From Burkholderiaceae bacterium (GTDB taxonomy: Bacteria > Pseudomonadota > Gammaproteobacteria > Burkholderiales > Burkholderiaceae_A), in contig JAGYIP010000003.1 in assembly GCA_018402635.1 (NCBI GenBank), forward strand, positions 76,849 through 140,848: DNA of 64,000 bases, given 5' to 3'. Made by a program: the position numbers and the translations under genes. This document shows positions 50,399 through 55,511 of this stretch, in pieces. The notes beneath the pieces were generated by a model that did not search any database, was not told the DNA's origin, and saw only the letters and a list, made by a program, of their open reading frames with translations. How positions within the stretch are numbered: the stretch's first letter is position 1; every line of letters begins with the position of its first letter.

Positions 50399-50428
50399 TC
50401 ATGAAATCTAATTAAAGCGACCTTGATC

Positions 50429-51577
50429 ATGAAACGGGCAACTGGGACTTATGTGAAATCCACCACCCTTGGGGAGGTGGTGCAGGCGTTCGTGCCTGAT
50501 TCGTTGCCCCCAAAAAATCCAACCCTGGCATTGGAGGTCTATCAGGACCTGAACCGCAAGGCGGAGATGGCGCTCGCGCGACTATCCGGCGTGTCGGGCT
50601 TGGTCCCTTCGGTGGACTGGCTGCTTTACAGCGCGATCCGCAAGGAGGCATTGCTCACATCGCAGATCGAGGGCACGCAGGCCACTCTGACCGACCTGTT
50701 TGATGAAGAAGCTGGCTTTAAGGTGAGCAACACTGACGATGTCGAGGAGGTCACGAATTACCTTCGAGCCTTCCGACTGGTTCAGAGCAGTTACGTGACC
50801 CCAAGGGACTGCCCATCAGCGTGCGGCTGCTGTGCGATGCCCATCGTCTGTTACTTAATGGCGTGAGAGGTGCGGGCAAGCAGCCCGGGAGTTGCGTCGC
50901 TCACAAAACTGGATCGGCGGCACAAGGCCCGGAAACGCGGTGTTCGTGCCGCCACCGCCAGAGAACGTGCCTCAGTTGCTGACCGACATGGAGCGATTCA
51001 TTCATGACGGTGCGACCGATTTACCACCCATGGTGAAGGTGGCGCTGATCCATGCGCAGTTCGAAACCATCCATCCTTTTCTGGATGGCAATGGCCGTAT
51101 TGGGCCGTCTCTTAATTGCAACGCTTTTTGAGCACTGGGGATTGCTTGCTGAGCCGCTGATGTATCTCAGCGGCTACCTTAAGCAACACCAGGCCGAGTA
51201 CTACCGCCGCCTGTCAAACATCCGCACCGAAGGTGATTGGGAGAGCCTGGGTGACTTTCTTTTGGAAGGCGTGTGCGTGGCTGCCGCAGATGCAGAGCAC
51301 AGCATTATCGAAGTGGCCAGTCTAGTAGCAGCGGACCGTAAACGCCTGCTGCGAGTCACCAAAGGCGGGGCCAGCCAGTTACCGACTGGTTGAGATGCTG
51401 CCGATGATGCCGCGATTCACGATTGAGCGCGTTCGCCAGCAACTCGACACAAGCTTTCCTACCGCCACAGCGGCCGTCAAGGTGTTAGAAGATCTCGGTA
51501 TCGTTACTGAGATGACGGGCCAGAAGAAGAACAGAAGCTACAGTTATCAAGCTTATGTTGAGCTGCTCTCTAAATGA
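50429..51577 (+). pseudogene. Fic-family protein with C-terminal winged helix, four frameshifts
   Basis: Fic proteins transfer AMP to target proteins. The pieces read in order: an N-terminal domain with LLYSAIRKEALLTSQIEGTQATL (the inhibitory helix SxxxE region as SQIEG), a middle LLCDAHRLLL, the core motif HPFLDGNGRIG, then LLIATLFEHWGLL, LYLS-like YLSGYLKQHQAEYY, and a C-terminal helix-turn-helix MMPRFTIERVRQQLDTSFPTATAAVKVLEDLGIV. Frame changes are needed near 50790, 50890, 51110 and 51385. All motifs survive, so either the copy decayed recently or local sequence errors accumulated. The start is taken as ATG 50429. Confidence 0.8.
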
Positions 51578-51581
51578 CTCA

Positions 51582-51746
51582 TTTGCGCGAAGCCGAGAGC
51601 ACACCAGCAAGACCAATGTGCGGATCATCGATTTCGTTGACACTGGTCACCCCGCGCTTTTGCGGATGTGGGACAAGCGGCAGCGTGGCTATCGTGCGAT
51701 GGGATACAGGGTGAGTTGTGATGAGACCGAAAAAAGACTATATTAA
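51582..51746 (+). pseudogene. C-terminal remnant of a DEAD/DEAH-box helicase
   Basis: The frame reads HTSKTNVRIIDFVDTGHPALLRMWDKRQRGYRAMGYRV. That matches the last 40 residues of a family of SNF2/DEAD-type helicases, which end with K-T-x-V-R-I-x-D-x-V-D and K-R-x-R-G-Y-R-A-x-G-Y. No upstream helicase domain is present here. The fragment ends within the promoter of the next gene. Confidence 0.65.
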
Positions 51747-51751
51747 GTCTT
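51716..51751 (+). promoter_or_regulatory. Promoter and operator of the Phd/ParE module
   Basis: TTGTGA (51716-51721), 17 bases, TATATT (51739-51744) form a good sigma-70 promoter. AAGACT and AGTCTT (51734-51739, 51746-51751) form an inverted repeat overlapping the -10. The antitoxin probably represses here, as is usual for Phd/YefM modules. Confidence 0.65.
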
Positions 51752-51772
51752 ACCCAAGCTCGGAGCACAGCC

Positions 51773-52042
51773 ATGCGCTACTCATCACAAGTCAAGCCCA
51801 TCAGCTACCTCAAAGCGAATGCCGCGGAGGTTCTGTCGCACCTCACAGAGCAACGCGAACCGCTGGTGATTACCCAAAACGGCGAGGCCAAGGCAGTCCT
51901 GCAGGATGTGGCCTCGTTCGAAGAGACACAAGAAACACTGGCCATGTTGAAAATTCTTGCGCTTGGCAACCAGGATGTGGCGGCCGGAAAGGTTAGGCCC
52001 GCGGCCGACGTTGTTGCACGTCTTCGCGCAAAGCGGGCCTGA
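51773..52042 (+). CDS. Phd/YefM-family antitoxin
   Basis: An 89-residue protein with the Phd/YefM N-terminal DNA-binding fold: SQVKPISYLKANAAEVLSHLTEQREPLVITQNGEAKAVLQ. The toxin-binding C terminus is basic. It is followed five bases later by a ParE/RelE-type toxin frame, making a type II toxin-antitoxin pair. Confidence 0.88.
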   Translation: MRYSSQVKPISYLKANAAEVLSHLTEQREPLVITQNGEAKAVLQDVASFEETQETLAMLKILALGNQDVAAGKVRPAADVVARLRAKRA

Positions 52043-52047
52043 GACTG

Positions 52048-52390
52048 ATGGCAGGCAAGTCGGCCAAGTTTGAAGTCCTACTCACCCAGGGTGCCGAGCA
52101 AGACCTAGAGGCCATCTACGATTACATCTGCGAGTTCGACGGTGCTCGCCAGCGCCAACTATGTTCTCGATGCGTTGATGGGTGTTGTGGAGAACCTGTC
52201 TAGACTCCCAGAGCGCGGCAGCTACCCCAAGGAACTGGTCGGCCTGGGCATCAAAGAATACCGGCAGACCTTCTTCAAGCCTTACCGAGTGATCTACCGT
52301 GTTGCTGACAACAAAGTCATTATTTATTTGATTGCGGACGGCAGACGCGATATACAGACCGTGCTCGCTCGCCGCCTACTTGGCAATTGA
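52048..52390 (+). pseudogene. ParE/RelE-family toxin with one frameshift
   Basis: The first piece MAGKSAKFEVLLTQGAEQDLEAIYDYICEFD is the ParE/RelE N-terminal text. After a shift near 52140 the second piece reads LASANYVLDALMGVVENLSRLPERGSYPKEL, then EYRQTFFKPYRVIYRVADNKVIIYLIADGRRD, which completes the toxin fold. The paired antitoxin is intact, so an orphan antitoxin, or an intact toxin with a sequence error, are both possible. Confidence 0.75.
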
Positions 52391-52463
52391 ATCCGCAAGT
52401 CCAGGCTCGTCCAGTTCAAGTTTATAACCGCGTGTAGGCTTATGTGCCATACGCTACCCTTAC

Positions 52464-52494
52464 AAAGGGCTCAGACCTGGTTCTGGGCCCTTTT
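52464..52494 (+). terminator. Terminator after the Phd/ParE module
   Basis: AAAGGGCTCAGA pairs with TCTGGGCCCTTT (one G-T) and the stem runs into TTTT. Confidence 0.6.
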
Positions 52495-52642
52495 CGTCCA
52501 CCTGTAACCCCAATGCTGGCGCGAGTCGGACCCGTCAGGGTTGCAGATTTAGCGCCCCCGGAAACGCCAGAAAACAGTCATGGGGTAGTTCTGAAAACCG
52601 CGCCACATTGGATGTGAATGGGTGTTAATGTGGAATTGAGAG

Positions 52643-52768
52643 CGGCCCATTGCTTCCCGATCGGTAAACAATGGGCCGAATCATGCCACAACCCCACTGA
52701 ACATTCCCGTTCGGGAAATATCGCTTGCACAGCGTCCAGTAGTGGCTGATAATTTCCCGTACGGGAAA
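52643..52768. promoter_or_regulatory. Three HipB-like operators and the hipBA promoter
   Basis: TTCCCG-AT-CGGTAA (52654-52667), TTCCCG-TT-CGGGAA (52704-52717) and TTCCCG-TA-CGGGAA (52754-52767) share one palindromic plan. Their centres are 52660.5, 52710.5 and 52760.5, exactly 50 bases apart. The first is embedded in a wider palindrome, CGGCCCATTG at 52643 and CAATGGGCCG ending at 52678. A promoter TTGCAC (52725), 17 bases, GATAAT (52748) lies between the second and third. Repression by HipB is inferred from the family. Confidence 0.75.
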
Positions 52769-52779
52769 CTGAGCAAACC

Positions 52780-53040
52780 ATGACATCCATTCGATCACCT
52801 CAACAACTCGGCGATGCACTGCGTGCCGCTCGCAAGCAGCTGGGGCTGACCCAGCCCCAGCTGGCGCTGGCGGCTGGGGTGGGTGTGCGCTTCATTGTCG
52901 ACCTTGAAGCAGGCAAGTCCACCTTGCGACTGGAAAACGTGCTGCGGGTCATTGATGCCCTAGGCGGTGAAATCCATTTGAGCGGATTGTCATCGGTTGC
53001 CTCCGGTGATCAACGAGAGGATGACGGCCATGGCACATGA
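52780..53040 (+). CDS. hipB: HipB-like antitoxin (XRE family)
   Basis: An 86-residue protein with a helix-turn-helix of the XRE family (LGDALRAARKQLGLTQPQLALAAGVGVRFIVDLEAGKSTLRLENVLRVIDALG). It directly precedes hipA, with a small overlap at the stop codon, and is preceded by three operator-like palindromes. HipB neutralises HipA and represses the operon. Confidence 0.92.
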   Translation: MTSIRSPQQLGDALRAARKQLGLTQPQLALAAGVGVRFIVDLEAGKSTLRLENVLRVIDALGGEIHLSGLSSVASGDQREDDGHGT

Positions 53041-54325
53041 GCTCGATGTCTGGCTTTTCGCAGCTCGTGCCGGCACGTTGGCGCTGGTCGATGGGCGGCT
53101 AAACTTTAGCTACGCACCCGGTTGGCTGTCACACAAAGACGCCGTTACCTTGTCCACCTCGCTCCCTCTGCAAGCAGAGCCATTTGACGATCGCAAAACG
53201 CGCCCGTTCTTTGCGGGTCTACTGCCCGAAGGGCAGATGCGCCGCCTAATTGCACAGCACTTCCAGGTCTCGGGCCAGAACGACTTTGCGTTGCTGGACC
53301 ACATCGGCGGCGAATGCGCCGGGGCGGTGACGTTACTTAAACCAGGGCAGGTTTTGCCTGTGCCGAGCCACCGCGATGACGTTCAATGGCTGAGCAACGA
53401 GGAAGTGATTGCCGTCCTGGATGAATTGCCGCGTCGCCCCATGTTGGCAGGCAAAGACGGCTTGCGGCTCTCTTTAGCGGGCACCCAAGACAAGTTACCA
53501 GTGGTTTTCGACGGTGCGCGCCTCGGGCTGCCCCGAGGCGGCACGCCTAGCTCCCACATTCTGAAACCGGCCATTTACGCCGTTGAAGATAGCGTGATCA
53601 ACGAGGGATTTTGTATGGCACTGGCTGAGGCCATGCAACTCAAACCGGCAAAGTCAAAGGTTCACAAGGTATTGGATCGCTCTTTTCTACTGGTCGAGCG
53701 CTACGACCGACCGGTCGATGCCCAGGGGCACCGGCAACGGCTTCATCAAGAGGACTTTTGCCAGGCACTGGGCGTGGTGCCGGAGATGAAATACCAGAAT
53801 GAGGGTGGTCCAGATCTGGCGCAGTGTTTTGAGCTGGTGCGCAGTGCGACGCGCCCTAGTGCGCCGCAGGTCCTGCGACTGCTCGACTACGTCATCTTCA
53901 ATGCGCTGATCGGGAATCATGATGCGCACGCTAAGAATTTCTCTCTGCTGTACTCGGGTAAGGCCCCCGTTCTGGCACCGTTTTACGACACACTCTCGAC
54001 GGCGGTGTATCCAACACTGACGCAGAAGATGGCGATGAAAATCGGCAGCAAGTACAAGTTCAGCGAAGTTCAGGCGCGTCACTGGGAGCAGTTTGCTGAA
54101 GGCGCAGGCTTTACCAAGGCGCAGGCTAAACGGCGCATTATGGAGTTGGCAAAGTTACTGCCAGCAACGGCGCGTAAGCTTCAGTCTGACCCCGGACACA
54201 GTTTTGGCGACAATCCAGTGGTTGATCAAATCAATACCTTGATTGAGCAACGCTGTGCCCTGACGATTCGGCGGCTTACCGATCCTGCATCCGACTTGGT
54301 CGCCAGCATCACCGCGCCCAACTGA
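53030..54325 (+). CDS. hipA: HipA-like serine/threonine kinase toxin
   Basis: HipA kinases phosphorylate glutamyl-tRNA synthetase or other tRNA synthetases and cause growth arrest and persistence. The 431-residue protein is intact. The glycine-rich loop is SLAGTQDKLPVVF, the lysine HILKP binds ATP, and LIGNHDAHAKNFSLL is the catalytic motif (Asp and Asn), with YDTLSTAVYP as the DFG-like metal site. ATG at 53030 has AGAGG 9 bases before it; an ATG at 53021 is an alternative. Its GC and codon style differ from core genes, which suggests transfer. Confidence 0.93.
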   Translation: MAHELDVWLFAARAGTLALVDGRLNFSYAPGWLSHKDAVTLSTSLPLQAEPFDDRKTRPFFAGLLPEGQMRRLIAQHFQVSGQNDFALLDHIGGECAGAVTLLKPGQVLPVPSHRDDVQWLSNEEVIAVLDELPRRPMLAGKDGLRLSLAGTQDKLPVVFDGARLGLPRGGTPSSHILKPAIYAVEDSVINEGFCMALAEAMQLKPAKSKVHKVLDRSFLLVERYDRPVDAQGHRQRLHQEDFCQALGVVPEMKYQNEGGPDLAQCFELVRSATRPSAPQVLRLLDYVIFNALIGNHDAHAKNFSLLYSGKAPVLAPFYDTLSTAVYPTLTQKMAMKIGSKYKFSEVQARHWEQFAEGAGFTKAQAKRRIMELAKLLPATARKLQSDPGHSFGDNPVVDQINTLIEQRCALTIRRLTDPASDLVASITAPN

Positions 54326-54887
54326 CCACGGCACCGGTTATCCAGTTCATCAAGTACGACGAGCATGGAAGCAAGGTCCTGGTGCTGACCGAACGCACCG
54401 AACACCTCGATGCGATCAAAGCCGCCCTCTGCGCCTCGGCCAGCAGCTGATCCCAGTCATCAGGAGGATGCCCGGCCTCCAGCATCTTTCGGAAAACTCG
54501 GTAGGCGTCATCGCTGCTTTCGTATGTGCGTTTCGTGTCTTCGTCATTCACCCACGCATAGACGATCACCTTGCTTGAGGCGTGATAGCGAAAAAATAGT
54601 CGGTACTGCTGGAGGAACTTGGCTCGTAACCAATGTTTGTGATTTTCACCGAGCGTGCCGCCCTGGCGATATTCCGGTCGCATTGGATCTTGCGGAACAA
54701 CATCAAACGCTAGCTTTGTAATGGCGGCCAGTCGTTTGCTGGCATTCTTTTTTTTATACCCTGTTGGGTCCTTCCGCTTAAAGGTATCGACCTGCTGCGC
54801 TAACGCTTCAATCTGCGCAAGAAACAGTGGATGGGCGAATACCGTCCAGCCATGAATGACCAAGGGCACAGGCTTTCCTGCGCTCAT
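54309..54887 (-). CDS. yhaV: YhaV-family toxin with C-terminal extension
   Basis: YhaV is an RNase toxin of the RelE fold. The match runs from GWTVFAHPLFLAQIEALAQQV through LRAKFLQQYRLFFRYHASSKVIVYAWVNDEDTKRTY to MLEAGHPPDDWDQLLAEA, near residue 155. Normal YhaV ends about there. Here the frame continues another 35 residues across the helicase fragment and overlaps the end of hipA by 17 bases. The antitoxin stop overlaps the start as ATGA. Confidence 0.85.
   Translation of the reverse strand: MSAGKPVPLVIHGWTVFAHPLFLAQIEALAQQVDTFKRKDPTGYKKKNASKRLAAITKLAFDVVPQDPMRPEYRQGGTLGENHKHWLRAKFLQQYRLFFRYHASSKVIVYAWVNDEDTKRTYESSDDAYRVFRKMLEAGHPPDDWDQLLAEAQRAALIASRCSVRSVSTRTLLPCSSYLMNWITGAVVSWAR
54337..54450 (+). 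pseudogene. Internal fragment of a DEAD/DEAH-box helicase
   Basis: The plus-strand frame reads VIQFIKYDEHGSKVLVLTERTEHLDAIKAAL. The LVLTERTEHLD text belongs to the helicase motif region of the same SNF2/DEAD family whose C-terminal remnant is found 2.7 kb upstream. The piece starts at the end of hipA and lies antisense to the end of yhaV. Confidence 0.55.
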
Positions 54888-55213
54888 TCATCGTCTTCCG
54901 ATAGCGCCGCATCAAGATCGACATCAACATCGCCAACCAGGGACTGCAGGTGCTGGACAAGGCCAGCATCTAAAGCTTGCAGTCGCCCGGGATGACGAGT
55001 GATGTCGTCGGCCAGAAAGCCGAGAAACTGACTAAGAACTGGGTCATCACCATCGGATGCTTCGACGCGCGTCATTACTACCTCTCCGCTGGAGCGAATG
55101 GTGTAGTGAATTTTGTCGCGCTTGCCCAATTTAAGGGCTCGACGCACGGTTTGCGGCACCGTAGTCTGATAACGGTCGGTGAGTGTGGATTCGACTTCAA
55201 GGGTCTCAGCCAT
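54884..55213 (-). CDS. prlF: PrlF-family antitoxin
   Basis: A 109-residue AbrB/SpoVT-type swapped-hairpin antitoxin: LTDRYQTTVPQTVRRALKLGKRDKIHYTI. ATG at 55213 lies just before a palindromic operator. The C-terminal half is acidic, as expected for the toxin-binding part. It pairs with yhaV. Confidence 0.88.
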   Translation of the reverse strand: MAETLEVESTLTDRYQTTVPQTVRRALKLGKRDKIHYTIRSSGEVVMTRVEASDGDDPVLSQFLGFLADDITRHPGRLQALDAGLVQHLQSLVGDVDVDLDAALSEDDE

Positions 55214-55254
55214 GGCAGTCTCCTGCGGATTTGAGTTGAAGTCTCGAAAGTAAT

Positions 55255-55282
55255 GCAATCGCATTGTCATGTCAATGCATTG
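55255..55282. promoter_or_regulatory. Operator-like palindromes of the prlF-yhaV module
   Basis: CAATGCATTG at 55273-55282 is a perfect palindrome, and CAATCGCATTG at 55256-55266 is nearly so. They lie 43-69 bases upstream of the prlF ATG and are candidate sites for the AbrB-type antitoxin. Confidence 0.55.
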
Positions 55283-55298
55283 GCATTGATGTTGATGA

Positions 55299-55511
55299 AC
55301 GTCAGAGCAGAGCCCACTGAGCATTGACCTGTATGTTGAGGTGCTGGCTGGCTTTGAGGACGAACTCAAGGCATCGATGGACAAGGATGCCGATGATGCA
55401 CTGCTGTGCATACTGGCCGATGAAGGTAATGTCGCAATGATGGTCATCGACTGGGACGGCAGCATCTGCCCATATTCACCACCCACATCAGCCAGAAAAA
55501 CCTGGGGGTAG
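55299..55511 (+). pseudogene. Possible small gene without a normal start
   Basis: An open frame reads LSIDLYVEVLAGFEDELKASMDKDADDALLCILADEGNVAMMVIDWDGSI to TAG at 55509. The amino-acid mix looks coding, but there is no ATG before residue 26, and the frame's 5' end lies next to the prlF operator. It may be a degraded gene whose start became CTG. No family is recognised. Confidence 0.35.

Follow-up and report, generated by a model that had tools for sequence, protein, structure and literature searches.

The hipBA operon of the window, by which we mean the entire 64,000-nucleotide stretch of Burkholderiaceae DNA analysed here, is preceded by three palindromic sites at steps of exactly 50 bp. At a rough probability of 0.75, these sites are autorepression operators for a co-operative, spacing-dependent assembly of HipB or HipBA, with binding predicted from sequence. 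O1 (TTCCCGATCGGTAA, one mismatch; 52654-52667), O2 (TTCCCGTTCGGGAA; 52704-52717), and O3 (TTCCCGTACGGGAA; 52754-52767) follow the pattern TTCCCG-NN-CGGGAA, have no assigned strand, and are centred at 52660.5, 52710.5, and 52760.5, so that reading the sequence confirms the number of sites and the exact spacing given in the original prediction. O2 and O3 are the only perfect copies of TTCCCGNNCGGGAA in the window's 1.96-Mb genome, and allowing one mismatch adds O1, two scattered sites, and nothing more. The array is not a product of chance, because these genome-wide copies amount to the array plus two scattered one-mismatch sites; a control palindrome of the same design, moreover, retrieved one viral contig against 61 for the operator. 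A search with three mismatches across the window is uninformative taken alone, and a literature search for the exact motif gave no relevant paper.

The sites also look like the HipB operators for which they had been taken, as they lie before hipB, and, in the genomes scanned, cellular pairs recur only at HipB-type loci. We infer that O1, O2, and O3 are bound by HipB, whose family is evident from its sequence. A conserved stretch (GCCACATTGG...GGGTGTCAATTTGGAATC; 52580-52640 in the window) precedes the array; many relatives have it too, before O1 or, where O1 has been lost, directly before O2. It is possibly the edge of a transferred module.

Downstream of the array, hipB (52780-53040, plus strand) encodes an 86-residue HTH antitoxin/repressor of the Y4mF/couple_hipB family, with matches to HTH_3 and to TIGR03070 (84.3 bits, above the curated cut-off of 71.65). 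It stays below the cut-off of the E. coli-type HipB equivalog NF007271 (25.9 versus 79 bits). The hipA gene (53030-54325, plus strand), whose first 11 bp are shared with the end of hipB, encodes a HipA kinase toxin with the Pfam domains Couple_hipA at the N-terminus and HipA_C, and matches E. coli HipA structures at E 2e-43. In the alignment to E. coli HipA, the autophosphorylation-loop and catalytic motifs SLAGTQDK, NHDAHAKNFS, and PFYDTLS occupy corresponding places. The locus thus has the type II hipBA arrangement in which the gene of an HTH antitoxin precedes and is coupled to that of a HipA kinase with both domains and motifs. The operon is intact and, judged by its sequence, a type II toxin-antitoxin module with predicted toxicity and neutralisation. 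It lies in a cluster of toxin-antitoxin genes (50423-55486) together with a Fic-family gene, which is split across several frames and apparently broken, a Phd/YefM gene with a ParE-like partner, and PrlF-YhaV, encoded on the minus strand in a frame that overlaps hipA at its 3′ end.

The promoter proposed between the second and third sites is borne out by sequence, conserved columns, and a promoter scan. It is a predicted sigma-70 element, TTGCAC-17-GATAAT (52725-52753, plus strand), with the hexamers at 52725-52730 and 52748-52753 separated by 17 bp; the scan calls the same element as TGCACA-16-GATAAT (9/12), and the TTGC and ATAAT columns are conserved in the alignment of related loci. O3 starts on the base immediately 3′ of the -10 hexamer and spans about -6 to +8, while O2 ends 7 bp before the -35 hexamer. 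Several operators of the same sequence hence bracket the hipBA promoter, the arrangement of E. coli-like co-operative autorepression. In the mechanism that we propose, the three palindromes would serve as autorepression operators of the hipBA operon, with HipB dimers occupying TTCCCGNNCGGGAA. With O3 at about -6 to +8 and O2 upstream of -35, an assembly of HipB or HipB-HipA on O2 and O3 would enclose the promoter, and O1 would add one further unit to the array. Each step of about 50 bp would then correspond to one unit of a HipBA complex assembling on bent DNA in a co-operative and spacing-dependent way. As 50 bp correspond to about 4.8 helical turns, the looping raised in the original prediction does not follow in its simple form, with the sites on one face of straight DNA.

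The same geometry allows a reading, which we consider unlikely, in which the spacing reflects promoter geometry and common descent and no protein-protein contact bridges the sites. The promoter sits exactly between O2 and O3 with conserved hexamers, and an invariant O2-O3 distance alone could come from promoter geometry. In close relatives, the spacing was compared for 80 loci with HipB 79-97% identical to that of the window, 79 of which have sufficient upstream sequence. O2 and O3 are exactly 50 bp apart in all 79, even though O3 lies at distances between 14.5 and 33.5 from the ATG. O1 is present in 70 of the 80 loci counted, window included, and lies 50 bp (45 loci), 49 bp (24), or 48 bp (1) from O2. 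The spacing is thus conserved among homologous loci, as the original prediction required. Common descent has the 70% mean identity of the O2-O3 spacer among close relatives in its favour. Promoter geometry, however, does not reach the O1-O2 interval, which has no such promoter to accommodate; there the sequence drifts (mean spacer identity 0.57 in the 50-bp class and 0.39 in the 49-bp class), yet the length stays at 48-50 bp. Parsimony puts the changes in O1-O2 length at about 18, all of them within 48-50; the tree was a quick one built from hipB and the start of hipA, and the count is approximate because it comes from a single locus and horizontal transfer is likely.

The ten loci that lack O1 indicate that three sites are not essential. 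One of them (L053) looks like its relative L052 minus exactly one O1-O2 unit, and other loci without O1 join the same upstream flank to O2, so that a unit can evidently be lost by recombination. These junctions are what one would see if the array were the relic of a tandem 50-bp duplication, kept by recombination between identical operators and not by function. We regard this as very improbable, given that the O1-O2 and O2-O3 spacers are unlike each other and that lineages whose HipBs have diverged by about 50%, and whose spacer sequences are unrelated, still have the length of 49 or 50 bp.

O1 of the window further lies in a wider inverted repeat (52643-52678, no strand), whose 10-bp arms CGGCCCATTG (52643-52652) and CAATGGGCCG (52669-52678) pair perfectly, leaving one unpaired base at each inner side (52653/52668). 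This part of the original prediction holds for the window and fails as a general feature. At least 9 of 11 flanking positions are complementary in only 3 of the 70 loci with O1, namely the window (10) and two relatives with near-perfect arms of different sequence (L026, 10; L001, 9); with arms taken from different loci, 9 or more are complementary in 0.26% of draws. The wider palindrome is limited to single lineages, is no conserved part of the array, and is therefore not counted in the mechanism. That it is itself the functional element (a hairpin, a terminator, or the site of a second regulator), with the operator secondary, is barely credible: the perfect arms of the window and those of the two relatives stand against 67 of 70 loci without it. 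A terminator or hairpin at O1 was also discarded as it is not conserved, and a scan of the region found no terminator-like signal.

In about 1,090 cellular genomes scanned with the pattern, spacings of roughly 34-66 bp being allowed, exact pairs occur at 49, 50, or 51 bp only. All of these lie at a HipB-type gene with the sole exception of a decayed hipBA remnant (L163), in which hipB and most of hipA are gone and the operators still stand 50 bp apart before what is left of hipA. Divergent HipBs (L167, L084, L266-L269) share operator and spacing, and alphaproteobacterial HipBs of about 40-57% identity keep arrays of 49-50 bp. When HipB-like loci of one alphaproteobacterial family were chosen by protein and not by operator, 13 of 20 had arrays with 49-50-bp steps, two of them with an additional internal site and one whose middle site fails the mismatch limit. 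Of this set, L302-L304 show a pair of sites at 49-50 bp, and those loci in which no such sites occur include the proteins of lowest similarity. Two loci (L289, L291) have four-site arrays, in which an otherwise 50/49 array contains one more operator, 16 bp away from its outermost site. On plasmids, HipBs of about 44-57% identity are accompanied by spacings of 50/50 (Rhizobium), 49/50 (Sphingobium and Acidiphilium), and 49/49 (NGR234 y4mF). A plasmid-borne locus of Tistrella has a spacing of 49, one of Methylobacterium has a different operator at 38/38, and no operators were found at the HipB locus on a Delftia plasmid.

Viral contigs contain the same pairs. A scan for pairs of perfect sites, at a centre-to-centre distance of 35-65 bp, yielded 61 contigs in 33 similarity groups (L088-L148), at spacings of 49 (31), 50 (20, leaving out the cellular locus L084), 51 (7), 52 (1), 39 (2), and 60 bp (1), with two spacings in L106. 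Wider spacings of 66-96 bp added 10 contigs, mostly at 71-72 and one at 82, spacings of 97-127 bp none, and spacings of 14-34 bp five (21, 21, 23, 33, and 33). Full viral records (n = 31, 5 to 456 kb) hold exactly two perfect sites in 29 cases and three in the other 2. We rejected the idea that the pairs are remnants of hipBA, as no HipB-like frame adjoins them except in L122 and in 27 of the 31 full records no protein reaches the HTH_3 cut-off. No common phage gene was found to adjoin the pair, the neighbours being different. Some pairs lie within open frames at an in-frame spacing of 51 bp (L102, L125, L126, L132, and others), and others within a few bases of tRNA genes (L099, L115, L144, L147, L151, L158). 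Promoter geometry is a poor explanation here, too, because these pairs keep 49-51 bp without hipB or an evident promoter and partly inside coding frames. Similar sequenced phages suggest, by indirect assignment, Burkholderiales and alphaproteobacteria as hosts (three groups). In the phage group of L091, any pair occurs in only 5 of 53 terminase relatives with at least 1.5 kb upstream, and the element is therefore sporadic in that group. By eye, T-runs recur in the spacers of this group at intervals of about one helical turn, and could bend the DNA in advance.

The exceptional viral spacings of 39, 60, 71-72, and 82 bp are separated by about one helical turn and are in step with 50. For the 10 exceptional spacings, resampling gives P of about 0.004, with the period chosen afterwards and the homology among the 71-72 contigs not fully removed; the off-phase short spacings of 21, 23, and 33 bp in five contigs count against phasing. 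Together, 39, 50, 60, 71-72, 82, and the 28/39 of E. coli look helically phased, on thin statistics. Co-operative assembly as originally suggested thus gains indirect support, from the constraint on spacers without a promoter and from the helical-phase regularity of the exceptional spacings.

Among eight phage records selected for their similarity, Caulobacter phage CcrSC (MH588547, 81356-81419) carries TTCCCGCTCGGGAA and TTCCCGATCGGGAT at a spacing of exactly 50 bp in the gap from tRNA-Lys to tRNA-Leu, and Brevundimonas phage Marchewka has a variant pair, ATCCCGAACGGGAA and ATCCCGTGCGGGAT, also 50 bp apart. Caulobacter phages CcrBL9, C1, and RB23 (L282-L284) likewise have a 50-bp pair inside the tRNA array, whereas CcrColossus, CcrPW, and Kikimora lack the pair in the corresponding region. 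A site in Erythrobacter phage L02 was discounted, as it falls within the FPLGKHDD coding motif of a terminase-like gene. Among CcrSC, CcrBL9, C1, and RB23, none of 24 half-site positions vary, compared with all 4 central dinucleotide positions and 9 of 36 spacer positions (centre versus half-sites, Fisher P 5e-5, for four related phages, two of them alike in this region). A protein-binding pair under selection would be expected to vary in this way.

Phage pairs may bind host HipB-type proteins. Tentatively, and at somewhat less than even odds, we propose that phages of proteobacteria carry host-spaced (49-51 bp) HipB operator pairs without hipB or hipA as platforms or decoys for HipBA. Such pairs would have originated more than once, in coding stretches as well as in non-coding gaps (often tRNA arrays), and selection would keep them in CcrSC, CcrBL9, C1, and RB23. 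A decoy or counter-defence function is speculative. The pairs may instead be bound by another host protein that prefers two sites in the same way; no cellular pair that was found points to one. Should they bind the same complex, phages and a persistence toxin-antitoxin system would interact at the level of DNA.

Co-operative assembly on repeated operators is known from hipBA of E. coli K-12, where HipB binds co-operatively and HipA acts as co-repressor (PMC3920265). As in the window, operators for HipB dimers are repeated upstream of the genes and cover the promoter, and HipA is a homologue of the window HipA. The operators themselves differ, being four copies of TATCCN8GGATA at spacings of 28/39/28 in E. 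coli and three of TTCCCGN2CGGGAA at 50/50 in the window. The arrays would be comparable in kind, the E. coli 28 and 39 and the window 50 falling into one helical-phase series. With a spacing rule valid from alpha- to gammaproteobacteria, such a repressor array offers a direct handle on the assembly of the HipBA complex on DNA, the step thought to be disturbed by the E. coli hipA7 mutations according to PMC7029023. Also similar are hipBA1 and hipBA2 of Caulobacter crescentus, for which PMC8545095 gives three operator sites in the promoters and PMC7029023 identical inverted repeats at regular intervals upstream. A further parallel is the y4mF antitoxin module of Sinorhizobium fredii NGR234 (pNGR234a): as in the window, the antitoxin belongs by annotation to the Y4mF family and is followed by a HipA toxin. 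Its HipB is about 44% identical to that of the window, and its three operators, the first one degenerate, are of the window type at a spacing of 49/49.
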